From positions 1 through 50,451 of the forward strand of contig ONRL01000009.1 in assembly GCA_900320225.1 (NCBI GenBank): a DNA stretch of 50,451 bases, in the 5' to 3' direction. The notes under the pieces were generated by a model that was given only the letters and a program-made list of their open reading frames with translations, was not told the origin of the DNA and did not search any database. This stretch comes from an uncultured Lentisphaerota bacterium. Its GTDB lineage: Bacteria; Verrucomicrobiota; Kiritimatiellia; RFP12; UBA1067. The translations under genes and the position numbers were made by a program. This document shows positions 10,101 to 50,451 of this stretch, in pieces (position 1 is the stretch's first letter; every line of letters begins with the position of its first letter).

Positions 10101-10723
10101 TCAACGCGCTTCGCGCCACCGCCCTTCTCGCCCTGGCGACGGCGGGGATGCTCCCCGCGCGAACCGCCCGGACCGTGTCCGAACTGCGGCTGGACGAGCG
10201 ATATGTTCTCCTTGCGCAGCGACTCCGTCAGCGTGCGGACGTCGTCCGGCGCGCCGGGGCCGATCAATGGGCCGGGGCCTCCTCCAGACAACACCATCAC
10301 GCGCTTCGCCTGTTCGTCCGACTTGTTCCGGCGCACTTCCTCGGCGCCCTTGCAAATGCCCGCGAACAGGGCCTTCATGCCCTTTGGCTTCAAGTCCTGG
10401 AGCTTCGCGAGGATCGGCGCCTTGTCGGCCGCCGACGTCGCGGGGAGAAGAAGCTCGGCCGTATCGTCGAACACGACGATCGACACGGTGTCCTTCTCGG
10501 TCAGGCGTTCGACGGCTCGCGTGGCCTGGCGGATCGTGCGCTCGAACGCGCGCTTGTTCTGCGAGGAACAGTCGATGACCAGGGCCAGATGTTGCGGTCC
10601 CTTGAAATCGTCCACGACTTTCTGCTCGCGCGGCGGACGCCGCTCGGTGGGCCGATTGGATCTCTGCGCGAGCGAATTCCCCGCAAGGAGCGCGGCGCAA
10701 ATGCATGCGAGTACGATTCTCAT
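10097..10723 (-). CDS. Secreted von Willebrand factor A-like protein with degenerate MIDAS
   Basis: The protein has 208 residues with a signal peptide (MRIVLACICAALLAGNSLAQ). Residues ~45-185 resemble a vWA domain: HLALVIDCSSQNKRAFE at the first strand, TVSIVVFDDTAELLLP and KRVMVLSGGGPG further on. The metal-ion-dependent adhesion motif is imperfect: DxSxS reads D-C-S-S-Q, and the later Asp is replaced in LSGGGP. The tail is rich in Gly and Arg. It overlaps the paralogue upstream and the kinase downstream by 4 bp each. In PVC bacteria vWA proteins often accompany DUF1501/DUF1549 genes, which fits the operon. Confidence 0.75.
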   Translation of the reverse strand: MRIVLACICAALLAGNSLAQRSNRPTERRPPREQKVVDDFKGPQHLALVIDCSSQNKRAFERTIRQATRAVERLTEKDTVSIVVFDDTAELLLPATSAADKAPILAKLQDLKPKGMKALFAGICKGAEEVRRNKSDEQAKRVMVLSGGGPGPLIGPGAPDDVRTLTESLRKENISLVQPQFGHGPGGSRGEHPRRRQGEKGGGAKRVE

Positions 10724-12487
10724 TTTTTCTTGTCCCTCTTTTTGCCGTTCGGCCGGTTGCGCCTGTCGTTCCTCCTGTCCCGGGGCCTCTCCCCGGCATT
10801 CGGCCTCGGCCAGGTGCGCACGTCGAAGGCATGCGTCGGCAGGAGGTGGTCCCAGGCGAAGGCCTGGTTGTATTCGTCAGCCGGTTGGATGCGCACCGTC
10901 TGCGTTTTCCCGTTGATCTGCGCCGAGGCCGTGAACTGCTGCTCCTGCACGGATTGCGAGGCGCGACTCTTCGAGACGAGCGCAACCTTGAGCATGTTCG
11001 TGCCTGCAGGGATGACGGCCGGCGCGAAACGGAAGTCCGGCGTCTCGTCCAGCTCCACGGGGCCGTCGAACCCGCCGCTGCGCACCACGAACACCTTCAT
11101 CTGGGATGAGCTGCTCCTGGCTCGGAAGGCGAAGGACGACTTAGCCGTCCACACCTCGAACGAGGGCGCGGGACGATGCACGCGCAGCGTGTACGACCAT
11201 TCCGGGCCGCCCTTCCCCGCCTCGTCCTCCACGCGCAGGCGGTACGTGCCCGCCGCGAGGCGGCACGTGCCCACCGGATCGCACTCGCCCTGGATGAGCG
11301 AGCCGCGGAAGACGAGGTTCGTGGTGTCCGTGAACTCGGCGAGGGGCTTTCCTTCCCCGGGACCGAGCACGCTTAGGCGCGCGTCGAGCGGCGAGCCGAT
11401 GCGGCGCGCGAGCACGTCGAACACGTACTCGCCGGGTTCCTTCACCTCGAAGACATGGTCGCTCGGTGCACCAGGACGGTCGACAGCGCCCGTGAACGTG
11501 GTACATGGCACGTCCGGCGGAGGCTGCGGCACGGGATTCGGCCACAGGCTCACACTACGCGGATCCACCGGATGCGCGCCCGCCTCCACGGTGATGGCAT
11601 AGACGAAGTCCGCACGTCCGCGGTAGAGCAGGTCGTGAACCTCCAGCTTGTAGTCGCCGTCCGCCGGCGGCGTGAACACGAGAACGGGGTCGGGGTGGTA
11701 GAAGTTATCGTCCGCAAAGGCCACCTCGGCGCCGTCGGCGTCCACGATGCGGAGCGCGGGGTTGAAGAACCCCGGCACGGCGTCTCTGCAGGTGGAGTGT
11801 CCACGTGTCCGTCTCGCCCGGCATGATCTGCCCGTCGAGCACGTACGGCAGGTTCGTGACGGCGGGGGCAGGGGGGCGCGGACGGTGTTTCGGCGCCCAG
11901 AGCGCCTCCGCCTCGCGCGGCGCCGCGGAGACGATGAACGGTCGCGGCGCGGACATCCCGTTCTGCCCGAGCACACGGAACTCACGCGCGCCGGGCTGCG
12001 CGTCTGGTGCAACCGCCACAGTCACGAGCATGCTCTGGTTCAGCGACGGCGAAGCCTGCAGCGGGTTACGGCGGATATAGAGCGCACGCTCGACGATTGA
12101 GAGCTTCTGTTCGTCAAGTTCGCCGAGGACCCGCCACCACCTGTTGGAGCGCCACTCGTCCACGCGGGCCTTTGGATTCGTCGGAATCGGCGGCGCGGTG
12201 CGGTCGCCCCGCGCAATGCCGTCGAGCCACTTCGCGAGGTAGCGGAACTGGCTGCCGCCCGCCGGCGGGAATCTCGGCACCATCTCGATGGACAGCACCT
12301 CCACACCTTCGCCGGACACGACGGCGTCTCGCACGCCCGCAAGGCCCTGACCTCCCACGATGAGTCGATTCGTCATGCCGGCCTGGATGCCGCACGGGTA
12401 GATGTAGCCCACGTACGGATCGGCGTGCACCCACGCGCTCCCGGCGACCAGGAGGATGAGAATGACTTTTTTCACACGGCCCTTCAT
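10720..12487 (-). pseudogene. PPC-domain secreted protein, paralogue 1, frame-disrupted once
   Basis: The N-terminal part (12487 to about 11786) encodes a signal peptide and a conserved region (PYVGYIYPCGIQAG, EWRSNRWWRVLGELDEQKLS, VLDGQIMPGETDTWTLHLQ). The sequence continues in another frame from about 11784 with DAVPGFFNPALRIVDADGAEVAFADDNFYHPDPV and a second PPC-like region down to 10720. Judged from the domain pattern, some 19-20 residues after TWTLHLQ are missing, and the loss is not a multiple of three. Intact relatives in Planctomycetes are ~600-800 residue exported proteins encoded with DUF1501/DUF1549 genes. Both ends overlap neighbouring genes by ATGA, so the locus still looks like part of a working operon. 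A sequence or assembly error cannot be excluded. Confidence 0.72.
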
Positions 12488-14302
12488 TTCTTCTTTTCTT
12501 GAGCTTTGCCTTCAGGCGGCTTGGGCGTGTCTTTCGGCTTGTCCGCGGGCTTAGCCGGCGGTGCTGCCTTCGGCTTGTCCGCGGGCTTAGCCGGCGGTGC
12601 CGCCTTCGGCTTGTCCGCAGGCTTAGCCGATGGCGCAACCTTCGGCTTGTCCCCAGGCTTAGCCGGCGGTGCTGCCTTCGGCTTCGGCTTGGGCGGCGGA
12701 GCGGGCTTCTTCACGTTCTTCCAGGCGTTCGGATTCGGCCAGGTACGCACGTCGAACGCATGCGCCGGCAGGAGATGGTCCCAGGCGAAAGCCTGGTTGT
12801 ACTCGTCCGCCGGCTGGATGCGCACCGTCTGCGTCTTCCCGTTGATCTGCGCCGAGGCGCTGAACTGGAGCTCCCTCACGTTCTGCGGGCCAGCAGTTTC
12901 ACGGGACCGTTGAAACCGCCCTTGCGCACCACGAACACTTTCATGGCGGGCGAGCCGCTCCACGCGCGGAACGCGAAGGAGGATTTGGCCGTCCACACCT
13001 CGAAGGAGGGTGCGGGACGGTACACGCGGAGCGTGTACGACCATTCCGGTCCACCCTTCCCCGCCTCGTCTTCGATTCGGAGGCGGTACGTCCCTGCCGC
13101 GAGACGGCACGTGCCCACGGGGTCGCACTCGCCCTGGATGAGCGAACCGCGGAAGACGAGATTCGTGGTGTCCGTGAACACGGCGACGGGCTGGCCGCCC
13201 GCAGGGCCGATCACGCTTAGCCGCGCGTCGAGCGGCGAGCCGGCGCGGCGCGCGAGGACGTCGAACACGTACTCGCCAGGCTCCTTCACCTCGAAGACAT
13301 GCTCGCTCGAAGCGCCCGCGCAGGCGACGGTGCCCGCGAACACGGTGCTCTTCGCGTCCGGCGGAGGCTGCGGCACGGGGTTCGGCCAGAGGCTCACGTG
13401 GCGCGGGTTCACGGGATGCGCGCCCGCCTCGACGGTGATGGAGTAGACGAAGTCATCGCGTCCGCGGTAGAGCAAGTCGTGGACCTCGAGCTTGTAGTCG
13501 CCGTCCGCCGGCGGCGTGAACACGAGTACGGGGTCGGGATGGTAGAAGTTGTCGTCCGCGAAGGCCACCTCGAGCGCAGCGTGACGGTGCGTCCCTTCTG
13601 CAGATGGAGCGTCCACGTGTCCGTCTGGCCGGGCATGATCTGCCCGTCAAGGACGCACGGGAGGTTCGTGACGGCGGGGGCGGGCGGAAGCGGACGGTGG
13701 GACGGCGCCCAGCGCGCCTCCTCTTCGTGCGGCGCGGAAGTGACGAGCAGCGGACGCGGCGCGGACATCCCGTTCGGCGCGAACACGCGGAACTCGCGCG
13801 CGCCGGGGGCGGCGTTGGCGTCCACCGCCACGGTTACGAGCAGGCGTTGGTTGAGCGACGGCGACATCTGCAGTGCGTTGGGCCGGATGTACATGGCGCG
13901 CGCGACGATCGAGAGCTTCTGCTCGTCGAGCGTGCCCAAGACGCGCCACCAGCGGTTCGAGCGCCATTCGTCCACGCGCGCGTTGGGATCCGTCGGAAGC
14001 GGCGGCTCCGTACGGTCGCCCTTCGCGATGGCGTCAAGCCACTTGGCGAGGTAGCGGAACTGGCTGCCGGTCGGAGGCGGGAAGCCTGGCACGAGCTCCA
14101 CGTCGATGATCTTCACGCCGCCACCCGAGACGGCGCCCGTGCGCACGCCCCACAGGAACTGCCCGCCCACGACGAGGCGGTTCGTGGTACCGGCCTGGAT
14201 CCCGCACGGGTAGATGTAGCCCACGTACGGATCGGCTCCCTGCGCATACGCGGCCGCCGCGGCCAGGAGGATGAGAATCGCCTTTTTCATGCGGGCACCC
14301 AT
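12484..14302 (-). pseudogene. PPC-domain secreted protein, paralogue 2, frame-disrupted twice
   Basis: This is a tandem copy of the following gene, closely similar throughout. Segment one (14302 to ~13574) has a signal peptide and ends TWTLHLQKGRTVTLR. Segment two (~13571 to ~12891) starts EVAFADDNFYHPDPV and runs to GGFNGPVKL. Segment three (~12885 to 12484) resumes at NVRELQFSASAQINGKTQ and ends in a Pro/Lys/Ala-rich tail. By comparison with paralogue 1, about 27 residues are missing at the first break and about 34 at the second, both out of frame. The start at 14302 overlaps the DUF1501 stop (TAATG); the ATG at 14290 is an alternative. Broken gene or assembly artefact are both possible. 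Confidence 0.72.
12533..12676 (-). repeat. Four tandem 36-bp units encoding a Pro/Ala/Lys tail
   Basis: Four consecutive 36-bp units (12533-12568, 12569-12604, 12605-12640, 12641-12676) encode variants of KAAPPAKPADKP on the minus strand. They form the extended C-terminus of paralogue 2 and are absent from paralogue 1, whose tail is Arg/Asn/Lys-rich. Such tails often act as wall-spanning or flexible linkers. Confidence 0.9.
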
Positions 14303-31103: not shown

Positions 31104-31667
31104 TTAGCTTTGGGCTCGCTTTCGCATGTAAACTGCGAGGCGGGTTTGGCCGTAGGTGCGGTCACGGCAAAGGTCCCACAAGGAAGACTCCTCAGGAGTT
31201 TGGCGGGCCGTGAGCTCCGCCACGAAGAGGCCCCCAGGCTTCACCACGTTCCGCGCGGCGAGCGTGGCCAGCACGGATGCATACCCCTTCTCGACACCGA
31301 GCTCGTAGGGCGGGTCGGCAAACGCCACGTCGAACGGCGCGCCCTCGAAAGTCTCCAACCACGCATACGCATCCGCCCGCACAAGGTGGCAACGCGCCTC
31401 GGCGGCAAGCGCGGCCACGTTGGCGCGCAGAAAGGCGAGGTGGCGCGGGGCGAGTTCCACGAACGTGCAGTCGGCCGCGCCACGCGACAGGGCCTCAAGC
31501 CCCACGCCGCCCACGCCCGCGAAGAGGTCGAGGAAGCGCGCGCCCGGCGTTTCGTGCATCAGCATCGAGAAGAGCGCCTCGCGCACGCGGTCCTGCGTGG
31601 GACGCAACACGTCACCCGGCGGCGCCTTCAACGCGCGACCGCGCCATTCCCCGCCTGCAATCCTCAT
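31104..31667 (-). CDS. rsmD: 16S rRNA (guanine966-N2)-methyltransferase RsmD
   Basis: The enzyme has 187 residues. MRIAGGEWRGRAL at the start, RPTQDRVREALFSML, FLDLFAGVGGVGLEALSRGA (SAM-binding) and VAFADPPYE (the NPPY-like DPPY motif of N-methyltransferases) identify RsmD, which methylates G966 of 16S rRNA. The start overlaps the metH stop by 4 bp (ATGA). Confidence 0.95.
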   Translation of the reverse strand: MRIAGGEWRGRALKAPPGDVLRPTQDRVREALFSMLMHETPGARFLDLFAGVGGVGLEALSRGAADCTFVELAPRHLAFLRANVAALAAEARCHLVRADAYAWLETFEGAPFDVAFADPPYELGVEKGYASVLATLAARNVVKPGGLFVAELTARQTPEESSLWDLCRDRTYGQTRLAVYMRKRAQS

Positions 31668-34126
31668 GCGAACATCTCCTCGGCAATGCGCACCGAACCC
31701 ATCGCGTCGCGGCTGTAGAAGTCGGCGTGGATCTCGGCGGCGTACTCCGCCGTGAGCACGGCGCCGCCCACCATCACCTTGCAGCCGGGCAGTTCGGCGT
31801 GGATGAGCTTGATCGTCTCCTCCATGAAGCCGACCGTCGTGGTCATCAGTGCGGAAAGGCCCACGAGACGACAGTTCTCGCGCCGCGCGGCCTCAAGCAC
31901 CGTCTCGGGCGCCACGTCGCGTCCGAGGTCGATCACCTTGAAGCCGTAGTTCTCGAGGAGCGCACGCACGATGTTCTTGCCGATGTCGTGGATGTCGCCC
32001 TTCACGGTGGCGATCACGATCGGGCCCTTCACCTTCGTTGGCGCGTCGCCGGATTTCGCGAGCGCGGCGCGGATCACGTCAAATGCCGCGCCGGCGGCGT
32101 CGGCCGCCATGAGGAGCTGCGGGAGGAACACGGTCTTCGCCTCGAACCCGCGCCCGACGGCCTCGAGGGCCGGCACGACGGCGCCGTCGATCACCTCGAC
32201 CGGCGCGCGCCCCGCGGCGAGTTCGGCGCGCGCGGCCTCGGCTGCGTCCGCCTTCAGTCCGCGGCGGATGGCGGCGACAAGCGCGCCGCCGGTTTCAGGG
32301 GAAGGAGAATCCGGATTCGGTCGCGCGGGAGCGCGACCCTCCCCAGTTGCCGCGCCAGGCGAACCCGCTGCGGGGAGCTGGGAGGCGTGGGCGATCCAGT
32401 TCTCGCATGAGCGGTCGCGGCCCGTGAGCGCGCGGTACGCCCGCCAGGCGGCCATCATCTCGGCCGACAGCGGGTTGATGATCGCGGCCGAGAGCCCCGC
32501 GCCCATCGCGAGCGTGTAGAACGCGGCGTTGAGGTGCGGACGCCCCGGCAGGCCGAAGGAGATGTTGGAGACGCCGAGCACGGTGCGGCAGCCCAGCTCC
32601 GCACGCACGCGGCGGAGCGTCTCCAGCACCACGTTGGCGCTCGTCGCATCCGCGCTCACCGCCAGGCAGAGCGCATCGAAGACGAAATCGTTCGGCCCGA
32701 GCCCGTACTCGGCACCGCGCGCGAGGATCTTGCGCGCGATCGCGAGACGCCCCTCCGCCGTGGGCGGGATGCCGTTCTCGTCGAGGGCGAGCGCCACCAC
32801 CACGCCGCCGTACTTCGCGACAAGCGGCAGTACGGCCGCGAGAGACTCCTCCTTGCCGTTCACGGAATTGACGAGCGCCTTGCCGTTGTAGTGTCGGAGC
32901 GCGCGGTCGAGGGCGACCGGATCGGACGTGTCGATCTGGAGCGGCAGGTCCACCACGCCCTGCACGGCCTGCACCGTGCGGTCGAGCACGGCCGCCTCGT
33001 CGAGGCCCGGCACGCCCGTGTTGACGTCGAGAACCGCCGCGCCCGCCTCGGCCTGCGACACGGCCTCGCGCAGCACGTAGGCGGTGTCGCCCTCCGCGAG
33101 CGCCGCCTTCAGGCGCTTCTTGCCCGTGGGGTTGATGCGCTCGCCGATGATGATCGTGTCGTCGAGGGGGATTTCCAGCGCGTGGGTGCTGGAGGAGATC
33201 ACGCAGGGGAGGGTCGCGCTCCTGCGCGACCGATCTTCGGCATGCGGCCGCGCAGGAGCGCGGCCCTCCCGCAATCGGGCGGTGACGGCGGCGATGTGCG
33301 CGGGGGTGGTACCGCAGCAGCCGCCCACGATTCGTGCGCCGGCCGCGACCAGATCCGCGACATCGGCGGCAAACTCCTCGGGACCGACCGTGAACACTGT
33401 CTTGCCGTCCACGACCTTCGGCATGCCGGCGTTGGGCTTCACCACGATGGGACACGAGACGACGCGGGCGAGGCGCTCCACGTAGGGACGCATGCGGTCG
33501 GGGCCAAGCCCGCAGTTGAAACCGAGCGCATCCACGCGCAACCCCTCCAGGAGCGCGGCGACGCACGCCACATCGCCGCCCGTGAGGAGCGTGCCGTCCT
33601 CCCCCAGCGCGACGGTGGCGATCACGGGCAGGTTGCAATTCTCCTTCGCGGCAAGGACGGCGGCCTTGAGCTCGTAGGTGTCGCCCATCGTCTCGACCAC
33701 CACGAGGTCGGCACCCGCCGCCGCGCCGAGGCGTATTTGCTCGGCGAAGGCGTCGTAAGCGGCGTCGAACTCGAAGTCGCCGGCGGGCTTCAGGAGACGG
33801 CCCGTGGGGCCGATGTCGAGGGCGACGAGGTGTGAAGCGGCACGAGTGTCGCTTCCCGCTTCACGGGCGATCTGAATGCCGGCGGCGATTACGTCCGCGA
33901 GCGGCGCGTCGCCGTGGTATTTCGCGGGATTCGCGCCAAAGGTGTTGGAATACACCACGTCCGCGCCCGCCGCGAGGTAGGCGGTGTGGACGGCGCGGAT
34001 GTCGTCGGGGCGTGTCAAGTTCCACAGCTCGGGAATCTCGCCGGCGGCGAGTCCCCGAGCCTGGAGCTGCGTCCCCATGCCCCCGTCGAGGAACAGGGGA
34101 CGCCCAGATGGGAGTTCAAGCGACAT
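31664..34126 (-). CDS. metH: Cobalamin-dependent methionine synthase without reactivation domain
   Basis: The protein has 820 residues in three parts. Residues 1-~285 are the homocysteine-binding domain (FLDGGMGTQLQARGL, VVETMGDTYE, FNCGLG and GGCCGTTPAH supply the zinc cysteines). Residues ~320-575 are the pterin-binding barrel (IIGERINPTGKKRL, LDVNTGVPG, LVNSVNGKEES). Residues ~610-820 are the cobalamin-binding module with IVIATVKGDIHDIGKNI (His ligand). The S-adenosylmethionine reactivation domain of long MetH is absent. Two insertions made of palindromic repeat DNA (GRAPARP peptides) lie in the interdomain linkers. It follows a Gfo/Idh gene by 22 bp and overlaps rsmD. Confidence 0.94.
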   Translation of the reverse strand: MSLELPSGRPLFLDGGMGTQLQARGLAAGEIPELWNLTRPDDIRAVHTAYLAAGADVVYSNTFGANPAKYHGDAPLADVIAAGIQIAREAGSDTRAASHLVALDIGPTGRLLKPAGDFEFDAAYDAFAEQIRLGAAAGADLVVVETMGDTYELKAAVLAAKENCNLPVIATVALGEDGTLLTGGDVACVAALLEGLRVDALGFNCGLGPDRMRPYVERLARVVSCPIVVKPNAGMPKVVDGKTVFTVGPEEFAADVADLVAAGARIVGGCCGTTPAHIAAVTARLREGRAPARPHAEDRSRRSATLPCVISSSTHALEIPLDDTIIIGERINPTGKKRLKAALAEGDTAYVLREAVSQAEAGAAVLDVNTGVPGLDEAAVLDRTVQAVQGVVDLPLQIDTSDPVALDRALRHYNGKALVNSVNGKEESLAAVLPLVAKYGGVVVALALDENGIPPTAEGRLAIARKILARGAEYGLGPNDFVFDALCLAVSADATSANVVLETLRRVRAELGCRTVLGVSNISFGLPGRPHLNAAFYTLAMGAGLSAAIINPLSAEMMAAWRAYRALTGRDRSCENWIAHASQLPAAGSPGAATGEGRAPARPNPDSPSPETGGALVAAIRRGLKADAAEAARAELAAGRAPVEVIDGAVVPALEAVGRGFEAKTVFLPQLLMAADAAGAAFDVIRAALAKSGDAPTKVKGPIVIATVKGDIHDIGKNIVRALLENYGFKVIDLGRDVAPETVLEAARRENCRLVGLSALMTTTVGFMEETIKLIHAELPGCKVMVGGAVLTAEYAAEIHADFYSRDAMGSVRIAEEMFA
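32319..32344. repeat. Palindromic repeat copy inside metH (linker 2)
   Basis: GGTCGCGC (32319-32326) and GCGCGACC (32331-32338) form a perfect 8-bp hairpin with loop GGGA, followed by CTCCCC. Read in the metH frame it gives EGRAPARP. Confidence 0.88.
33207..33270. repeat. Paired palindromic repeats inside metH (linker 1)
   Basis: There are two facing copies. GGTCGCGC (33212-33219) pairs with GCGCGACC (33224-33231), and GGCCGCGC (33246-33253) pairs with GCGCGGCC (33258-33265). GGGAGG and CCTCCC form the outer ends. The block encodes EGRAPARP...SRRSATLP between the homocysteine and pterin domains. Confidence 0.9.
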
Positions 34127-41611: not shown

Positions 41612-42859
41612 TCAGACGCGCTTGCTCTGGACGTCGCGCTCGTACTTGAGCACGTCCGCCATCCACGCCTCGTTCGCCGGGAGCTTCGCGCGGGCGCAGA
41701 ACTCCTCCCACACGGCAGCGAAGGGATAGCTCTTGAGCTCCTCCTGGAGCACGAGCTGCTCGGTGAACTGCTCGCCGTCCTGGAGCGCCTTCAACGTGGC
41801 CGACGGTTCGAGGAGCGCCTCAAGAAGCGCCTTCTGCATGTTGCGCATGCCGAGCACCCACGCGGCGACGCGGTTGATCGAGGCGTCGAAGTAGTCGAGC
41901 GCCACGATGAAGTTCTCCGGGCCCATCCGCACGATCTCGTGCGCGGCGTTGCGCAGGTCGTCGTTCACGCGAATCACGTGGTCGGAGTCCCAGCGCACGG
42001 GGCGCGAGATGTGGAATGCGACCTTGCCGAAGAACATGAGGAACGAGCTGATCTTGTCCGCCACGTTCTCGGACAGGTGGAAGTGGCCCATGTCGAGGAG
42101 CGCGAGGATGCCCTTCTTCATCGCATAGCCCATCACGAACTCGTGCGAGTTCACGGTGTAGCTCTCGAGGCCGATGCCGAAGAGCTTCGACTCGAAGGTC
42201 GGGATCACGTACTTCTTGTTGTACTTGTACTTGAAGATCTTGTCGAGCGAGTCGGCCATGCGCTGGCGCGGCCCGAGGCGGTCGCTCGGCTCGTCCTTGT
42301 AGCCGTCGGGGCACCAGAAGTTGACCGCGCACGGCGTGCCGAGCTCCTTGCCGAAGTACTCGGCGATCTTGAGGCACTGGATGCCGTGCCGCACCCAGAA
42401 CGCGCGCACCTTCGGGTCGGGGCTCGAGAGCGTGAGCCCGTTCGCCGCGAGCGGGTGCGAGAAGAACGTCGGGTTGAAGTCGAGGCCGATGCCGCGCTTC
42501 TTCGCCCAGGCGACCCACGGCGCGAAGTGCTTGGGCTCGATCTTGTCGCGGTCCGCCACCTTGCCCTCGTGGATGCCGTAGCAGGCGTGGAGGTTCAGGC
42601 GGTGCTTGCCGGGGATGAGCTTGAACGCGAAGTCGGCGTCCGCCATCAGCTCCTGCGGCGTGCGCGCCTTGCCCGGATAGTTGCCGGTCGTCTGGATGCC
42701 GCCGGACGCGCCGCCGGTCGTCTCGAACCCGCCGACGTCGTCGCCCTGCCAGCAGTGCATCGAAATGCTGATCTTCTTCAGCGTCTTGATCGCCTTCTCG
42801 GTGTCAACGCCGAGTTTCTTGTACTGGGCCTTCGCGGCCTCGTAGGTAGCTTTGCTCAT
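41612..42859 (-). CDS. rhaA: L-rhamnose isomerase
   Basis: The enzyme has 415 residues and converts L-rhamnose to L-rhamnulose. It matches RhaA along its whole length: ISMHCWQGDDV and GNYPGKAR near the start, LNLHACYGIHEG, LDFNPTFFSHPLAANGLTLS, ESKLFGIGLESYTVNSHEF, LDMGHFHLSENVADKIS, SRPVRWDSDHV and YFDASINRVAAWVLG, which include the metal ligands. AAGGAG precedes the start, which overlaps the hemC-cobA-hemD stop by 4 bp. No other rhamnose gene is in the window, so the pathway partners (kinase, aldolase) lie elsewhere. Confidence 0.97.
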   Translation of the reverse strand: MSKATYEAAKAQYKKLGVDTEKAIKTLKKISISMHCWQGDDVGGFETTGGASGGIQTTGNYPGKARTPQELMADADFAFKLIPGKHRLNLHACYGIHEGKVADRDKIEPKHFAPWVAWAKKRGIGLDFNPTFFSHPLAANGLTLSSPDPKVRAFWVRHGIQCLKIAEYFGKELGTPCAVNFWCPDGYKDEPSDRLGPRQRMADSLDKIFKYKYNKKYVIPTFESKLFGIGLESYTVNSHEFVMGYAMKKGILALLDMGHFHLSENVADKISSFLMFFGKVAFHISRPVRWDSDHVIRVNDDLRNAAHEIVRMGPENFIVALDYFDASINRVAAWVLGMRNMQKALLEALLEPSATLKALQDGEQFTEQLVLQEELKSYPFAAVWEEFCARAKLPANEAWMADVLKYERDVQSKRV

Positions 42860-44919
42860 CGCTTCTCCTTGTTGTTTGCAGGCACCGTGCCTGAAATGGT
42901 TGCGGAAATTATATCAAAAATCCGCGCCTTTGCGGAAAAACTCTTTGGCAACGCGGCGCGCGTGGGGCCGCCCATCACGAGCACGCCCTTCCCGCGCAGC
43001 GCCCCCGCGCCGTAGCGCGCAACAAAGGATTCGACCGCTGAAGCCGACGCGAAAAACACGTCGTCGAACGGCGGGAGCGCCCCGTCCGGCGCGCAGGCGC
43101 GGTTCTCGTAGAGCACCACGTCGTCCACTTTCGCCCCCGCCCGGCGCAACGCGCGCGCGACGTCCGCGCCCGCCTTCGCGCTCCGCAGACGCAGCACGCG
43201 CTTGCCACGCAAATCCAGCTTCTTGATCTCCGCGACGAGTCCCGCCGCCGAGAAGTCCTTCGCCGGCAAGACATCGCTCAAGACCCCGTGCCGACGCAAC
43301 TCCGCGTCCGTCCCCGCCCCGCACGTGTAGAACGCGCCGAGCCGCCGCACGTCACACGTGCAGTTCGCGAAGAAGATGCGCACCGCAGACGGCGACGTGA
43401 GCACGATCGCATCGTAATCCGCCACCTCCTCGCCGAACGCGCGCGTCGCACGCAGTTCGATAAGCGGCCAGCTAATCGGACGTCCCCCGAGATCCTCCAC
43501 CGCCGTCGCTGCGCGTTCCTGCACGGAGTCCGAACACGTTACGAGCACGCGCCGTCCCGCAAGCACACCAAGCCGCGGCCAACCGCCGTGCGCCGCCACA
43601 CGGCCCACGATGAAGAGCCCGGGACGGTCCTCTTCCTTCGCCGGCAGAATCTTGCGCACCGTCCCGAGCGTGGCCGTGCGCACTTCCTCGCGCGGACCCG
43701 CCGCGTCGAACACGAACGCACACGGCGTCGTCTTCGCCCAACCCTCGCGCACGAGACGCCGCGCCTCGTCCGACGCCATCCGCGTGGCCATGAACGCCAC
43801 CTGCGGCGTCTCCGTGCCCGTCGAGCGCGGCGTGTAGGCGGTGAACCCGCGCGACTCGCCGCGCCGTGTGAGAAGAAGGCCCGTGCCCGTCGTGGCCGCC
43901 ACGAGCGCGCTCACGCCCGGACGCACCACGAATGGAATCTGAAGCGCCGTCAGTGCATCGGTTTCCTCGGCGAGCCGTCCAAACAGCCCCGCATCGCCGC
44001 CCTTCAATCGCACGACGCGCCGCCCCTTCCGTGCCTCGTTGCAGATGAGCCGCGTAATCTCCGCCTGCTGCATCGTGTGCGCGCCACACCGCTTCCCCAC
44101 ATCCACGTCTGTCCTCTGTCTTCCGTCCTCTGTCTTCCGTCCTACCAACGACAGATCGAAGAGCGCATCGTGGAGCACCACATCCGCCTCTTCCAGATCC
44201 CGCAGCCCCCGCACCGTGCAGAACCCCGCGTCGCCCACGCCCGCGCTCACGAAGCGCACGGCCTTCACGAAATGCGCGCGCATCGCCATGAGCCGCGCAT
44301 CGCCTGAACGGAACACAACCGCGAGATGGCCCTGCGCTTCCGGCGGCGCGAGTTCTTCGAGCGGAATGGGGATGAGCTCCACGCCCGGCGGCGTGCCGCC
44401 ATAGAGGCGCGTGATCCCCGCGAGCGCCATCAGCACGGCGTCGTAGCGTCCCTCTCGCAGCTGTTGGATGCGCGAATCGATTGACCCGCGGATCGGCAAT
44501 AGCTTCGCCTTCGGATACGCCTTCTTCGCATACGCCGCCCGCCGCTCGCTCGACACGCCAATTTTCGGCTCACGGGGACGCTCGCCTTCCCTCACCACCC
44601 ACGCGTCGCGCGGGTCTGCGCGTTCCGGCAGCCATAACCAATCCAAATCGTCTGCAATTTTTGGCGGCAAATCCTTTGCCGAATGAATGGCAAAGTCAAT
44701 GCGCCCGTCGCGCACGGCCTCATCCAAATCGCGCGTGAAGAAATCCGGCGCGCTCTTCTCGATCGGCGTCGTGAGGTCGCGGTCGCCAGGCGTCTCCACC
44801 GTGACGACGCGGTAGTCCGTGCCCGGGAAGCGCGCGCGCAGGAAATCGAGCGCACCTGCCGTCTGGGCAAGCGACAGCGCGCTGCCGCGCGCGCCGACGA
44901 TGAACCTTTCCTTCTTCAT
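42856..44919 (-). CDS. HemC-CobA-HemD triple fusion (tetrapyrrole synthesis)
   Basis: The protein has 687 residues. Residues 1-~212 are porphobilinogen deaminase (VGARGSALSLAQT, IHSAKDLPP with catalytic Asp83, PIRGSIDSRIQQL, EAQGHLAVVFR). Residues ~221-445 are uroporphyrinogen-III C-methyltransferase (VSAGVGDAGFCTVRGL, VVRLKGGDAGLFGR, RPGVSALVAA). Residues ~452-687 are uroporphyrinogen-III synthase. The third HemC domain, which holds the Cys that binds the dipyrromethane cofactor, is absent. Two repeat-like inserts occur, at residues ~110-118 (REGERPREP) and ~262-273. One polypeptide would thus link bilane formation to precorrin-2/sirohydrochlorin. The start overlaps the HNH gene. Confidence 0.88.
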   Translation of the reverse strand: MKKERFIVGARGSALSLAQTAGALDFLRARFPGTDYRVVTVETPGDRDLTTPIEKSAPDFFTRDLDEAVRDGRIDFAIHSAKDLPPKIADDLDWLWLPERADPRDAWVVREGERPREPKIGVSSERRAAYAKKAYPKAKLLPIRGSIDSRIQQLREGRYDAVLMALAGITRLYGGTPPGVELIPIPLEELAPPEAQGHLAVVFRSGDARLMAMRAHFVKAVRFVSAGVGDAGFCTVRGLRDLEEADVVLHDALFDLSLVGRKTEDGRQRTDVDVGKRCGAHTMQQAEITRLICNEARKGRRVVRLKGGDAGLFGRLAEETDALTALQIPFVVRPGVSALVAATTGTGLLLTRRGESRGFTAYTPRSTGTETPQVAFMATRMASDEARRLVREGWAKTTPCAFVFDAAGPREEVRTATLGTVRKILPAKEEDRPGLFIVGRVAAHGGWPRLGVLAGRRVLVTCSDSVQERAATAVEDLGGRPISWPLIELRATRAFGEEVADYDAIVLTSPSAVRIFFANCTCDVRRLGAFYTCGAGTDAELRRHGVLSDVLPAKDFSAAGLVAEIKKLDLRGKRVLRLRSAKAGADVARALRRAGAKVDDVVLYENRACAPDGALPPFDDVFFASASAVESFVARYGAGALRGKGVLVMGGPTRAALPKSFSAKARIFDIISATISGTVPANNKEKR
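44101..44142. repeat. Tandem 14-bp repeat inside the SUMT domain
   Basis: CCTCTGTCTTCCGT occurs twice in tandem (44113-44126, 44127-44140) with a partial copy before it. It encodes RKTEDGRQRTD in a loop between two conserved SUMT motifs. Confidence 0.8.
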
Positions 44920-45309: not shown

Positions 45310-47736
45310 TTACGGTGCGGAACGCGGGCGGGAAAAGGCGGAAACGGCCAGCGCCGTAACGAGACAGGCCAGCATGCCGAGAAAACCGTACAGCAGCAGG
45401 TGCGGTTTGCCCGCGAACGACAGCTGGTCGAGCGCGAAGCACACCGCGTAGTTCGCGACAAGTCCCGCGAGCGCCGCCGCGCCCGAAACGCGCTTCATGA
45501 AGATGCCCATGAAGAAGAGGCAGCCGAGACCGCCCGTGAGGATGCCCAGGAAACGCTGGAACTGGTCGTAGACGTTCCCGATGTCGGCGTTCGCGAGCAG
45601 CAGCGCGAAACCGCCGCCGAGGAGGCCCACGACCACCGTGCAGATCTTGCCGCAGCGGAGCAGCGCGCGGTCGTCGGCAGCGCGGAAGCGGCGGTAGAAG
45701 TCCGTGGTGAACGCGCTCGCGGCCGAGTTGAGGTTTGCGGAGAGCGTGGACATCGTGGCCGCCGCGACGGCCGCGAGGACGAGTCCCGACACGCCGAGCG
45801 GCAGGTCGTTCCCCATGAAGAGCGGCAGGATGGAGTCGTTCTTCGGCATCGTCACGTCCAGCAACGCCGGGTTGGACTTGTAGAACGTCCAGAGCGCCAC
45901 GCCGAGGATGAAGAACACGAAGCAGTTCAGGAACGAGAGGCAGCCGTTGAAGATGATGGACTTCGCGGCGCCCCGCTCGTCCGGCGTCGTCATGTAGCGC
46001 TGCACCACGCACTGGTCGGACGTGTAGCTCGCGAGGTTCGCGACGAGCCCGCCGATGAGCACCACCCAGAAACACGGCTTCGTCCAGTCGAAGGCGAAGT
46101 CGAATACGCGGAACTTGTCCGCCGCCGCGCCCATCTTGACGAAACCCGCAAGCCCGCCGTCCGTCCCGAAAACGAGCAGACCCAGGATGAGCGCCGTCGA
46201 GGCGATGAGGATCACGGACTGCACGAAGTCGCTCCAGATCACCGCCTCCACGCCGCCGATCGTGCAGTAGAGGATCGTCACGAGCGTCACCGCCACGATG
46301 GCCATGTTCACGTCGAGGTCCGTCACGGCGGCGATCGCGATGGCGGGCAGGTAGGTGACCACGGCCGTGCGCGCGACCATGAACAGGATGAACGCCGCGC
46401 TCGCGAAGAGGCGGCAGGCGAGGTTGAAGCGCACTTCAAGGAACTCGTAGGCGCTCGTGAGGTTCAGCCGGCGGAAGAACGGCAGGTACCACTTCGCCAC
46501 GACGGGCGCGAGCAGGATGATGCCGAAGGAAATCACGTAATAGCGGCAGTCGTCCAGGTAGGACATGGCCGGGATCGAGATGAACGTGATGGACGAGAAC
46601 ATCGTCGCGTAGATGGAGAGCGACACCACCCACCACGGCAGCTTGCCGCCCGCGCGGAAATAATCGTCCGACGACTTGTTCCGCCGCATGAAGTAGACGC
46701 CCATCAGCGCCATGCCGAGCAGGTACGCCACGATCACCGACACGTTGATCCACGAATACGCCGCCGGACGCCCGAACTTCCCGATTGCCGAGAGCGGACT
46801 CCGCACGCCCGGCTTCAGCTCGCCGCCCGCGAGCAGGATGCGCCCGTCGGCGAGCTTCACGGCAGCCGCGCCGCACCGCGCCCAGCCGCCCGGAAGCTCG
46901 AACCAGCTGTCGGTCACGATGTGGTAGACGAGGATCTTGTCCGAGATCCGGTAATCCGCGATCGGCCGGTCGGGTCCGAGACGCGCCCGCCACACCTCCG
47001 CGTTCGCGCCGCCGAAGAAGAGGACATGCTGGTCGCCCGACGCCACCGCGCTCGCGCCGATGACCGTGCGCCCGAGATGCTCCTCCAACACCTGGCCGGG
47101 CTTCCCGTAACCCCTGAAGTAATGAAGTCCCCCCTTCTGGTACACGAGCACGGGCTGTTCGCTCGGTTCGATCTCGCGGTCCTTCTCCCACGCCGCGCCC
47201 GACGCGAGATCGAGCCTCCAGATGGCATTCGAGACGGTACACCACGCCATGTCCTCGTACACCGCGAGCCCCGGCATCACGACGGGCGCGGGAAGCGGCG
47301 GCAGCGGATCGAACTGCACGGCGCGTCCGTCCCAGCGCATGATGAAGCAGTCGTTCGTGGCGGTCTCGCCGTGTGCGCCGACCCTGCCGCCCACGCAGAG
47401 CACGCCCCGCGCCGTCGTGGCCGACGCGCCCTCGCCGCGCGGCACGGGGAAACGCCCTACCTCGCGCCAAGACGGTTTTTCAGCCGCGGGGTCGCAAAGG
47501 AGGATCGCGTCGTGGTAGACCTTCTTACCGCCCTCGACGAGCGGCTTGTCGGGGAAGTTGGCGCCGCCCGCGAGCAACACCGCGCCGGCCGTCTCGCCCG
47601 CATAGGGACGCGCCACGCCAGTTCCCGGCAGATTGAACGTCTCGCCGACTGAGAAATCCACCCGCGCCCAGGCGGCGGAGTACGCGACCGCCAACAAGCA
47701 GACCACCCACGGCCTTATGCCGCACGCGGACTTCAT
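45310..47736 (-). CDS. Kelch/mutarotase-like domain fused to a sodium:solute symporter
   Basis: The protein has 808 residues. After a signal peptide, residues ~25-320 form a kelch-type propeller (AGAVLLAGGANFPDKPLVEGGKKVYHDAILLCD, GVLCVGGRVGAHGETATNDCFIMRWD, HVLFFGGANAEVWRA, GRILLAGGELKPG) like N-acetylneuraminate epimerases (NanM, cyclically permuted mutarotases). Residues ~335-800 are a 13-helix SSS transporter (DDYFRAGGKLPWWVVSLSIYATMFSSITFISIPAMSY, WSDFVQSVILIAS, MSTLSANLNSAASAFTTDF). This architecture occurs in gut sialic-acid loci, so import coupled to anomer/epimer conversion of sialate or a similar sugar is likely. The start overlaps the upstream gene. Confidence 0.88.
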   Translation of the reverse strand: MKSACGIRPWVVCLLAVAYSAAWARVDFSVGETFNLPGTGVARPYAGETAGAVLLAGGANFPDKPLVEGGKKVYHDAILLCDPAAEKPSWREVGRFPVPRGEGASATTARGVLCVGGRVGAHGETATNDCFIMRWDGRAVQFDPLPPLPAPVVMPGLAVYEDMAWCTVSNAIWRLDLASGAAWEKDREIEPSEQPVLVYQKGGLHYFRGYGKPGQVLEEHLGRTVIGASAVASGDQHVLFFGGANAEVWRARLGPDRPIADYRISDKILVYHIVTDSWFELPGGWARCGAAAVKLADGRILLAGGELKPGVRSPLSAIGKFGRPAAYSWINVSVIVAYLLGMALMGVYFMRRNKSSDDYFRAGGKLPWWVVSLSIYATMFSSITFISIPAMSYLDDCRYYVISFGIILLAPVVAKWYLPFFRRLNLTSAYEFLEVRFNLACRLFASAAFILFMVARTAVVTYLPAIAIAAVTDLDVNMAIVAVTLVTILYCTIGGVEAVIWSDFVQSVILIASTALILGLLVFGTDGGLAGFVKMGAAADKFRVFDFAFDWTKPCFWVVLIGGLVANLASYTSDQCVVQRYMTTPDERGAAKSIIFNGCLSFLNCFVFFILGVALWTFYKSNPALLDVTMPKNDSILPLFMGNDLPLGVSGLVLAAVAAATMSTLSANLNSAASAFTTDFYRRFRAADDRALLRCGKICTVVVGLLGGGFALLLANADIGNVYDQFQRFLGILTGGLGCLFFMGIFMKRVSGAAALAGLVANYAVCFALDQLSFAGKPHLLLYGFLGMLACLVTALAVSAFSRPRSAP

Positions 47737-48568: not shown

Positions 48569-50323
48569 CTATTGCACGTCGAGTGCGAGCTTGAAGAACG
48601 CGCCGCAGCCCGCCGGCACCGTGAACGTGTTGAGCCACGTCCCGTCGCCCTGCCGCTCCGACGACTGGAGCGTCGGCGCCACGGCCGACCATCCCGAGCC
48701 GAGCGACGCCGCCTCCTTCACGACAAGTCCCTTCGGCGCAGTCGTGAACTCCGCAGGCGAACGCATCGTGATGACATGTTCCGTCTCGCCCGGCACGAAC
48801 GCCTCCACCTTGAATGCCACGGTCACCGCCACGGTGTCGGTCGGCTTGAGCCCGTACACGCAGTTGAGGCCGTTCGGCAGTCCGTTTGGCGCGATCACGG
48901 TCGCCGCCGTGAGGTTCGTCTTCCATGCATCGGCCCACGAGAAATTCGCCAGCACCCACTGCTTGTAGCCCGAGACGGGTGCCACGTCCGCCACGGCGTC
49001 CACCTCCGGCGACGTGAAGTAGTCGCCATCGTCATTGGGGGTTTCGGACTCCATGCCTGAGATGCGCACGTATCGGAACCACTTGCGGCCTTGCGCGTTG
49101 GTCGGGAGGTTGAGCTTGCCGATGTCAAAGCCCGTACCGCCCGCCGAACCGTTATACCGCTTTGCCACTTCCGCAAGCGTCAAACCCTGCAGGGAGGCCC
49201 ACGAAAGAGACGGATCGACCGGATAGCAGGCATCCGCCATCTTTCCCCACCACCTGTTGCCGGAATAGAGCGCAGTGTCCGGTGCCACGTCGTCATAGAC
49301 GAATCCAAGCGTAGGGGCGAAATCGTCGCCATGCGGACCGTCATTAAACGCATACCAGGTCCGCCCGTCCTGCGAGACCTCCACGAGCGCCTCTTCAGGC
49401 GTTCCGCTGCCTGTGAACGAGATGCCGTTCGGTCCCATGTTCTGCGAGTAGTAGGCATCGGTCGTCCCCACGCCAAAGGCATTGCCGAACACGATGAAGT
49501 CAAGCCCGAACGGGTTGTTCGGATCGTCCACCACGTCATGGTCGAACTCGATGACCACAAAGTCGTCTTCGCCTTGCAGAGTAAGGAGTTCGCCTTCTTT
49601 CCACGCGGCGTTGTAGGGGCTGACCGGTCCGCCCCATTGTCCGACCATGTAGGCCGTCGGCCGCCCCAGCACGTTCTCGACATCATCGAAATCGTCTTCG
49701 TCGGTGGACACATTGGAATCGACCACTCGCCAGCCGTAGGGAGACTCAGCCGCCGTCGGAGTCCGCAAGACGGCAGGCGACTCGTTCCAATCCGCGTCGT
49801 ATTCGGGGCTGCCGATCGAAAACACGAACCAATTGCCGTCAACGGGAACGATTGAATTGGCGGCAAGCCAACTCGAATACTGCGGCGTGGTCGGGAAGGA
49901 CGGTCCTTGCATCGGACCGTACAGAACCCACCATTGCGAAAATGACTTCCTATCTTCAAGCCCCCAAAGCGCATTTACACTGGAGGTGCTCCCCGTATCC
50001 TTGTCCCAGCTCGCCGCGCCGTCGTCTTTGTCATAGCCGAAAAAGTACAGGTCGGCGTAGGCGCTCGTCATGCCCTGGCATCCCATCACGAGCCGATGGT
50101 CCTGGTCGACGATGCGATTCACCACTTCCAGCAAGTTCGTGCAGGAGCCGTTCCACCTGTATCCCCAGGCCAGCGACTCGCCGCCGAAGTCGAGGGCGAC
50201 GGCGCAACGGTTCGTTCCTTCACCCATCCAGAAGTGGATGTCGTTAAACGAGAATCCCCGAACCGGGGATGACATAACAGAGACGGTGGCGCACAGCGCC
50301 GCCGCCGCGATATTTATCTTCAT
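48569..50323 (-). CDS. Large secreted protein under a cobalamin riboswitch
   Basis: The product has 584 residues from the ATG at 50323 with a signal peptide (MKINIAAAALCATVSVMSSPVRG). Residues ~25-120 contain FNDIHFWMGEGTNRCAVALDFGGESLAWGYRWNG, a pattern I know from secreted and PEP-CTERM proteins of PVC bacteria. The middle part has Gly/Asp-rich beta sheets (DDFVVIEFDHDVVDDPNNPFGLDFIVFGNAF, RKWFRYVRISGM). No C-terminal sorting signal is visible. No enzyme family is recognised. Because a B12 riboswitch precedes it, a role in corrinoid binding or uptake at the cell surface is the best inference. Confidence 0.72.
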   Translation of the reverse strand: MKINIAAAALCATVSVMSSPVRGFSFNDIHFWMGEGTNRCAVALDFGGESLAWGYRWNGSCTNLLEVVNRIVDQDHRLVMGCQGMTSAYADLYFFGYDKDDGAASWDKDTGSTSSVNALWGLEDRKSFSQWWVLYGPMQGPSFPTTPQYSSWLAANSIVPVDGNWFVFSIGSPEYDADWNESPAVLRTPTAAESPYGWRVVDSNVSTDEDDFDDVENVLGRPTAYMVGQWGGPVSPYNAAWKEGELLTLQGEDDFVVIEFDHDVVDDPNNPFGLDFIVFGNAFGVGTTDAYYSQNMGPNGISFTGSGTPEEALVEVSQDGRTWYAFNDGPHGDDFAPTLGFVYDDVAPDTALYSGNRWWGKMADACYPVDPSLSWASLQGLTLAEVAKRYNGSAGGTGFDIGKLNLPTNAQGRKWFRYVRISGMESETPNDDGDYFTSPEVDAVADVAPVSGYKQWVLANFSWADAWKTNLTAATVIAPNGLPNGLNCVYGLKPTDTVAVTVAFKVEAFVPGETEHVITMRSPAEFTTAPKGLVVKEAASLGSGWSAVAPTLQSSERQGDGTWLNTFTVPAGCGAFFKLALDVQ

Positions 50324-50343
50324 GTCTGTATTCAGCCTTTCAT

Positions 50344-50451
50344 GCGAAGGATCATACACGCGGCGGGGAGCGTCTCCTGGCTTCCGGCTTCGGGCCTCGT
50401 CCACATCCTTCGCAGGGCCACCCGGCCCCACTGGTCAGCGCGGATTCGTAT
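50344..50451 (-). promoter_or_regulatory. Cobalamin riboswitch (5' edge at window end)
   Basis: The reverse strand upstream of the secreted gene has the B12 box AGCCAGGAGAC (50372-50382), preceded by GATG...GAGGCCCGAAGCCGGA and by TGCGAAGG and CCAGTGGGGCC, the spacing and conserved core of AdoCbl riboswitches. An exact 9-base complement (GCGAAGGAT in the core at 50405-50413, ATCCTTCGC at 50344-50352) lies 3' of the B12 box and may be part of the expression platform. The 5' arm of the outermost helix lies at or beyond the window edge. Confidence 0.82.

Follow-up and report, generated by a model that had tools for sequence, protein, structure and literature searches.

What does a cobalamin riboswitch control when the gene below it encodes a secreted protein that belongs to no recognised family? 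The question is raised by one end of a 50,451 nt stretch of DNA (the window), which comprises bases 1-50451 of contig C185 from a 5.2 Mb genome assembled in 351 contigs. The leader of a gene for a 584-residue secreted protein carries part of a cobalamin riboswitch there and is cut by the contig end. A first-pass annotation had recognised a B12 box and conserved core elements in this leader, had found no known corrinoid-uptake domain in the protein, and had proposed that it may be a new component with which PVC bacteria bind corrinoids outside the cell. The analysis described here supports that proposal computationally, while the binding of B12 itself remains an inference. The features on which the argument rests are collected in Table 1.

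Table 1. Features of the 584-residue protein gene, its leader and metH, in window coordinates.
Feature	Position	Strand	Evidence
metH, cobalamin-dependent methionine synthase, 820 aa, short form	31664..34126	-	homocysteine methyltransferase, pterin-binding and both B12-binding domains
ORF of the 584-aa secreted protein, stop codon included	48569..50323	-	ORF confirmed
C-terminal beta-rich region, residues 456-584	48572..48958	-	model and alignment; no function assigned
C-domain, residues 193-448, related in fold and sequence to the BtuH2 B12-binding domain (7BIZ)	48980..49747	-	model, VIA-align, HHalign
N-domain, residues 33-173, intrinsic factor/transcobalamin beta-domain fold	49805..50227	-	AlphaFold model and VIA-align
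N-terminus resembling a signal peptide, residues 1-24, without a lipobox cysteine around the cleavage region	50252..50323	-	sequence; low pLDDT at 1-21
Expression-platform element ATCCTTCGCATGAAAGG	50336..50352	-	sequence and leader comparison; role inferred
3' half of the cobalamin riboswitch aptamer (5' half on C320)	50350..50451	-	RF00174 positions 91-189
B12 box AAGCCAGGAGACGC	50370..50383	-	sequence and Rfam alignment
TGCGAAGGAT, aptamer core, exact complement of 50343-50352; candidate anti-sequestor strand	50405..50414	-	sequence, conserved in genus leaders; role inferred

A cobalamin riboswitch divided between two contigs

Taken alone, the window would fail a significance test for a riboswitch, because the fragment it holds is sub-threshold. 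Cut short on its 5' side by the contig end, this fragment scores 15.2 bits (E 0.061) with the Rfam Cobalamin model (RF00174), for which the gathering score is 31.5, and a scan of the whole window with Rfam at the gathering threshold returned two tRNAs only and no riboswitch. Contig C320 from the same genome begins with exactly the 99 nt on which the window ends. An overlap of this kind marks two contigs as neighbours in the assembly graph; the join is based on this overlap, without read support. On C320, positions 20-142 of the minus strand align with RF00174 positions 47-167 at 62.5 bits (E 8.9e-15), above the gathering score, and this is the sole cobalamin riboswitch match in the 5.2 Mb genome by covariance-model search.

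An unbroken leader from a genome of the same genus (G005, contig C45:4661-4837), which scores 65.7 bits over model positions 1-189, matches the joined one almost base for base, and the riboswitch core is largely invariant across ten leaders of the genus and family. The requirement of RF00174 for a B12 box and conserved core is met by the leader, so that the original reading of these elements held and, once C320 is included, the riboswitch lying directly upstream of the ORF is real. Matches in the leader to mir-B6, flavi_FSE and other non-cobalamin Rfam models were far under their cut-offs and were dismissed.

How the leader may switch expression can only be inferred. The expression-platform element offers two pairings, either of its CCTT with the AAGG of a Shine-Dalgarno-like AAAGG or of a longer segment with the aptamer core. 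In the absence of cobalamin a pairing of ATCCTTCGCA (50343-50352) with the core strand TGCGAAGGAT may free the AAAGG ribosome-binding site, and low cell cobalamin would in this way permit translation of the 584-aa protein gene. With cobalamin bound to the aptamer, CCTT would pair with AAGG, mask the ribosome-binding site and stop expression. Folded alone, the platform hairpin of the window sequence is no better than shuffles (z 0.47), and for that reason its role is kept as an inference only. Within the genus the inverted repeat hardly varies and offers no support from covariation, the exception being the G001 leader, where CCCTC/GAGGG stand in place of CCTT/AAGG; overall the covariation is slight. 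Regulation that is OFF on B12 through masking of the ribosome-binding site is the mode we favour, in the absence of expression data.

Two domains resembling B12-binding proteins

The 584-aa protein gene is present as a single copy in the genome. Its product carries a Sec-type signal without a lipobox, as judged by eye, and its location at the cell surface is inferred. Pfam assigned the protein to no family at E-values up to 1, and hence gave no DUF4465, DUF4430, PKD or TonB plug match. NCBIfam likewise held no convincing family, its TpgA match of 12.5 bits, where the cut-off is 350, being due to chance, and phmmer and hmmsearch against the PDB yielded no usable sequence relative.

An AlphaFold model calculated with 22 homologs in the alignment has a pLDDT of 87.8 and a pTM of 0.87. 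It describes a multi-domain beta protein with no barrel of either the alpha6/alpha6 or the TonB type. The whole-model matches returned by Foldseek, to phage tail and immune proteins, are long alignments of low TM and were dismissed as meaningless. B12-binding folds were absent from the best 50 matches of Foldseek alone and surfaced only in a second look, a VIA-align comparison with a blind list of 995 chains. In that comparison the C-domain matched best to BtuH2 (7biz_A; Z 12.6 over 156 residues, rmsd 3.8), with BtuG1, a BtuG-BtuH fusion (8blw), at Z 12.5. The N-domain matched intrinsic factor (2pmv) at Z 11.5 with an rmsd of 2.3 Å over 106 residues and transcobalamin (5no0) at Z 10.6, the matches to intrinsic factor and transcobalamin as a whole spanning Z 10.3-11.5 and rmsd 2.3-2.5 Å. 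The secretion signal and these folds, in a confident model, are shown computationally.

The fold of the C-domain belongs to a common class of beta-sandwich shared with CBM32 (carbohydrate-binding) and discoidin domains, which VIA-align also places at Z 8-9. As beta-sandwich folds are common and Foldseek had not ranked the B12 folds, support was sought from sequence. Using HHalign, the family profile of the C-domain aligned with an 86-residue segment of 7biz at 94.0% and a score of 47.3, while the best of 300 shuffled controls reached 9.2% and 23.7; against 8blw the value was 89.8%. A peptide probe served solely to retrieve the true 7biz sequence for this comparison. The profile-profile computation shows that the C-domain is related in sequence to BtuH.

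BtuH2 contacts B12 through Gln333, Asn399, Phe401, His476, Tyr510, Trp511, Trp577 and Leu578 (PMC8941943), and a constant offset of 100 puts Asn399 and Phe401 on the N and F of QGNAF in 7biz. The FGNAF segment of the C-domain (279-283) matches QGNAF of BtuH2, so that Asn399 and Phe401 align with N281 and F283, and N281 is kept in at least 90% of homologs. Only these two of the eight contact residues could be mapped, the other six lying outside the aligned segment.

The protein is likely, on the basis of the model and without binding data, to combine a BtuH-type domain with a beta domain of the transcobalamin/intrinsic-factor type. The earlier statement that it has no known corrinoid-uptake domain therefore holds only in part: Pfam and NCBIfam are empty and TonB receptor features are missing, but two B12-binding folds are present in the predicted structure and are visible by structure and profile-profile comparison only.

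Homologs and their genomic neighbourhood

A search of the genome contigs with the single sequence found no relatives, and an alignment was needed; the alignment-based search returned 157, of which 80 were kept for analysis. Homologs occur in 37 of the 98 genomes searched, counting the genome of origin. They range over Kiritimatiellae, Lentisphaerae, other Verrucomicrobia, Planctomycetota and Desulfobacterota, and most of the named relatives with a homolog are rumen and gut MAGs of Kiritimatiellae.

We defined a locus as informative if a riboswitch was found or if at least 1.5 kb of upstream sequence was present. By this definition a cobalamin riboswitch lies upstream on the same strand in 56 of 72 loci, drawn from Kiritimatiellae, Lentisphaerae, Planctomycetota and Desulfobacterota. 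Since there is about one cobalamin riboswitch per genome, chance is excluded as the source of the association, and both the identity of the riboswitch and its conserved position are shown. The remaining 16 loci have none at the gathering threshold, and include two with a complete btuFC-btuD operon (L105 and L106). Two of the 56, L107 and L124, carry a riboswitch of another class, AdoCbl-II (RF01689), which places the family under B12 control by two aptamer classes. The first-pass annotation would have been refuted by homologs whose leaders never carry the riboswitch and whose neighbourhoods lack corrinoid genes; with the counts above, and with some homologs beside btuFC/btuD, this is not the case.

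Two Desulfobacterota loci (L156:4139-4588 and L174:4080-4496) have tandem cobalamin and c-di-GMP-I riboswitches upstream of their homologs, an arrangement that raises the possibility of joint control by B12 and c-di-GMP. Elsewhere, cobalamin riboswitches precede genes for NrdD-like (B12-independent) ribonucleotide reductases at L071:336-2800 (G010) and L068:9416-10192 (G012), followed in G012 by an NrdG-like activase gene; the G010 and G012 assignments rest on visual inspection of the start of each sequence alone.

A pseudopilin of one specific subfamily is encoded near the C-domain gene in 70 of the 80 loci. It passes the test for the prepilin N-methylation motif (PF07963, 23.2 bits against a cut-off of 21.2), and its model is pilin-like, but the matches to pilins are weak (Z 4.4 or less); the few rows of structural matches to this model include no corrinoid-binding fold. 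Genes of the btuF/btuC type, mostly with btuD, follow in eight of the 80 loci, among them G003, G007, G014, G067 and the Sedimentisphaerales contig L163. The linkage to the pseudopilin, and in some genomes to btuFC/btuD, is shown computationally. In the present genome btuFC (C110) and the pseudopilin gene (C211) both lie apart from the contig of the 584-aa protein gene. No TonB receptor gene is found beside the latter within the window, and most homolog loci have no adjacent outer-membrane receptor gene.

The two domains are not always joined. They are fused in 35 loci and separate in 21, which indicates that they are functionally tied. In Planctomycetes they are encoded by separate neighbouring genes and the N-domain proteins bear PEP-CTERM anchors; three stand-alone N-domain proteins gave no match to Pfam DUF4430. 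At L062:3427-5673, L073:3204-5609 and L082:5593-8652 a separate first gene with two or three copies of the N-domain precedes the C-domain gene.

Probable B12 requirement of the host

The window does contain a cobalamin-dependent metH, as had been claimed. The host also has a BtuF-BtuC fusion that is 75% identical to its counterpart in the G003 operon, while CbiC is absent from the genome (it was found in 1 of 59 relatives) and so is a strong BtuB-type plug, a single weak TonB plug being all that was detected. These presences and absences are shown, and from them we infer that the host is likely auxotrophic for B12 or salvages it. The BtuF-BtuC fusion gene is broken by a contig end (end of C110, start of C155; L185 and L187) and lies directly downstream of a 967-codon ORF. 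Genomes across the order, this one among them (C149), encode a receptor of about 720 aa whose TonB plug is a weak match in a PF07715 search (E about 1e-13).

Three other regions of the window, all on the minus strand, were recorded. One ORF at 42856-44919 is a triple fusion of HemC, uroporphyrinogen-III C-methyltransferase and uroporphyrinogen-III synthase; at 45310-47736 a Kelch domain like that of N-acetylneuraminate epimerase is fused to a sodium/solute symporter; and 10720-12487 and 12876-14302 are two diverged tandem copies of a secreted-protein pair, one with a weak PPC-type match.

Across the genomes compared, 4 of the 37 with a homolog encode a strong BtuB-type plug, against 35 of the 59 without one (Fisher 1.6e-6; 0.001 once the genus was collapsed). 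The threshold was set post hoc after two score classes had been seen, and the genomes are related, non-independent and incomplete. That the homolog system replaces BtuB everywhere was rejected, as TonB plugs occur in 25 of 36 distant homolog-bearing genomes. Secretins were found in all 40 relatives tested; a pseudopilus-type apparatus in these relatives is possible and has not been shown.

Comparison with known corrinoid-binding systems

The closest likeness is to BtuH, represented by BtuH2 of Bacteroides thetaiotaomicron (7BIZ) and the BtuH half of BtuG1/BtuGH (8BLW). The C-domain shares its fold (Z 12.6), a detectable relation in sequence (HHalign 94%) and an FDH...GNAF motif with the Asn that contacts the B12 phosphate, and both are under the control of cobalamin riboswitches. 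In contrast to BtuH, the 584-aa protein has no lipoprotein signal and neither a PKD domain nor a beta-propeller, carrying a transcobalamin-type beta domain instead, and its homologs are linked to a pseudopilin rather than to btuB in hosts that are PVC bacteria and Desulfobacterota. As the lipoprotein signal, the PKD domain or propeller and the btuB link were each tested for and not met, the protein should not be filed as a BtuH. One of its domains is nevertheless of the BtuH type, and a mode of action like that of such proteins is probable, although there are no binding data.

Residues 33-173 share the fold of the beta domain of intrinsic factor and transcobalamin (2PMV, 5NO0; DUF4430 type), but identity is only 7-12%, Pfam does not recognise the relation and the alpha/alpha-barrel is missing; the protein is bacterial and has a separate BtuH-type domain as the partner. 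BtuJ/DUF4465 proteins, one of which, from the verrucomicrobial Coraliomargarita, binds B12 (PMC13398666), are likewise secreted beta-sandwich corrinoid binders in riboswitch operons. For the 584-aa protein such binding is a prediction, and without a DUF4465 match it represents a separate family.

The same kind of riboswitch also heads BtuBFCD uptake operons in the same order. In other genomes of the order it precedes a TonB receptor gene, followed in several by btuF, btuC and btuD, with genes assigned from sequence starts; two such receptors that were tested match TonB receptor models including TonB-B12, below the curated cut-offs. BtuF, BtuC and BtuD are common to both arrangements, whereas homolog-bearing operons begin with the homolog and the pseudopilin and not with a TonB receptor. 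The family was not described in the literature searched (cobalamin riboswitches, Kiritimatiella, Planctomycetes, Verrucomicrobia and DUF1559), a search that left subscription journals mostly uncovered.

A putative capture protein and its alternatives

The explanation we consider likely is a riboswitch-controlled, secreted corrinoid-capture protein that feeds BtuFCD, for which both corrinoid binding and the way through the outer membrane are inferred. The exported two-domain protein would bind scarce cobamides outside the inner membrane and pass them to the BtuF-BtuC/BtuD importer, the hand-over to BtuF also being an inference, and the imported vitamin would supply enzymes such as MetH. The dedicated pseudopilin probably works with the capture protein at the cell envelope, where it may help to present or move it; this partner role is again inferred. 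A bolder reading, that secreted two-domain cobamide binders and the pseudopilin replace BtuB in a TonB-independent uptake route and deliver corrinoids to BtuFCD through a pseudopilus or secretin-type apparatus, is in our view improbable.

It might be objected that the riboswitch fragment is a coincidence of the contig end with no control over the 584-aa gene, given that the match within the window is under the Rfam cut-off and the upstream half sits on another contig. The exact 99-nt overlap with C320, the near-identical unbroken leader in G005 and the same riboswitch-gene arrangement in most homologs leave almost no room for this. A different objection is that the likeness of the beta-sandwich to BtuH is superficial, the protein serving at the cell surface in carbohydrate binding or adhesion and cobalamin being no more than a cue by which surface colonisation is tuned. 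The scores of the C-domain with CBM32 and discoidin domains, the many surface proteins produced by Kiritimatiellae and Planctomycetes, and the PEP-CTERM anchors of the planctomycete N-domain proteins speak for it. Against it, BtuH scores about 3 Z units over the CBM and discoidin rows with an HHalign result well above shuffles, the N-domain independently matches cobalamin carriers, and some loci continue into btuFC-btuD, so that we regard an adhesin as very unlikely.

The protein could also bind corrinoids without a role in uptake, giving the cell an edge over its neighbours by hoarding or sequestering cobamides extracellularly or on vesicles. Most homolog genes do lack a neighbouring outer-membrane receptor gene, and there is a precedent in the vesicle-borne BtuJ proteins of B. 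thetaiotaomicron, which capture cobamides (PMC12751083). But the host, without CbiC, appears to need import and has a btuFC importer, the gene is co-operonic with btuFC/btuD in relatives, and the vesicle case too ends in delivery to cells; hoarding is accordingly unlikely, and a capture protein that feeds BtuFCD remains the preferred reading.

Many bacteria of gut, rumen and sediment are unable to make B12 and scavenge it, and the route used by PVC bacteria is hardly known. Here the fold of a mammalian B12 carrier and a BtuH domain like that of gut Bacteroides appear to meet in one bacterial protein, to which its relatives add a pilin-like partner under the same riboswitch. This makes an experimental target available in four bacterial groups and raises the question of whether a BtuB-type receptor is needed for corrinoid entry. 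The pattern of gene, riboswitch and pseudopilin across several phyla likely points to an undescribed B12-capture system, in which the binding of B12 is inferred.
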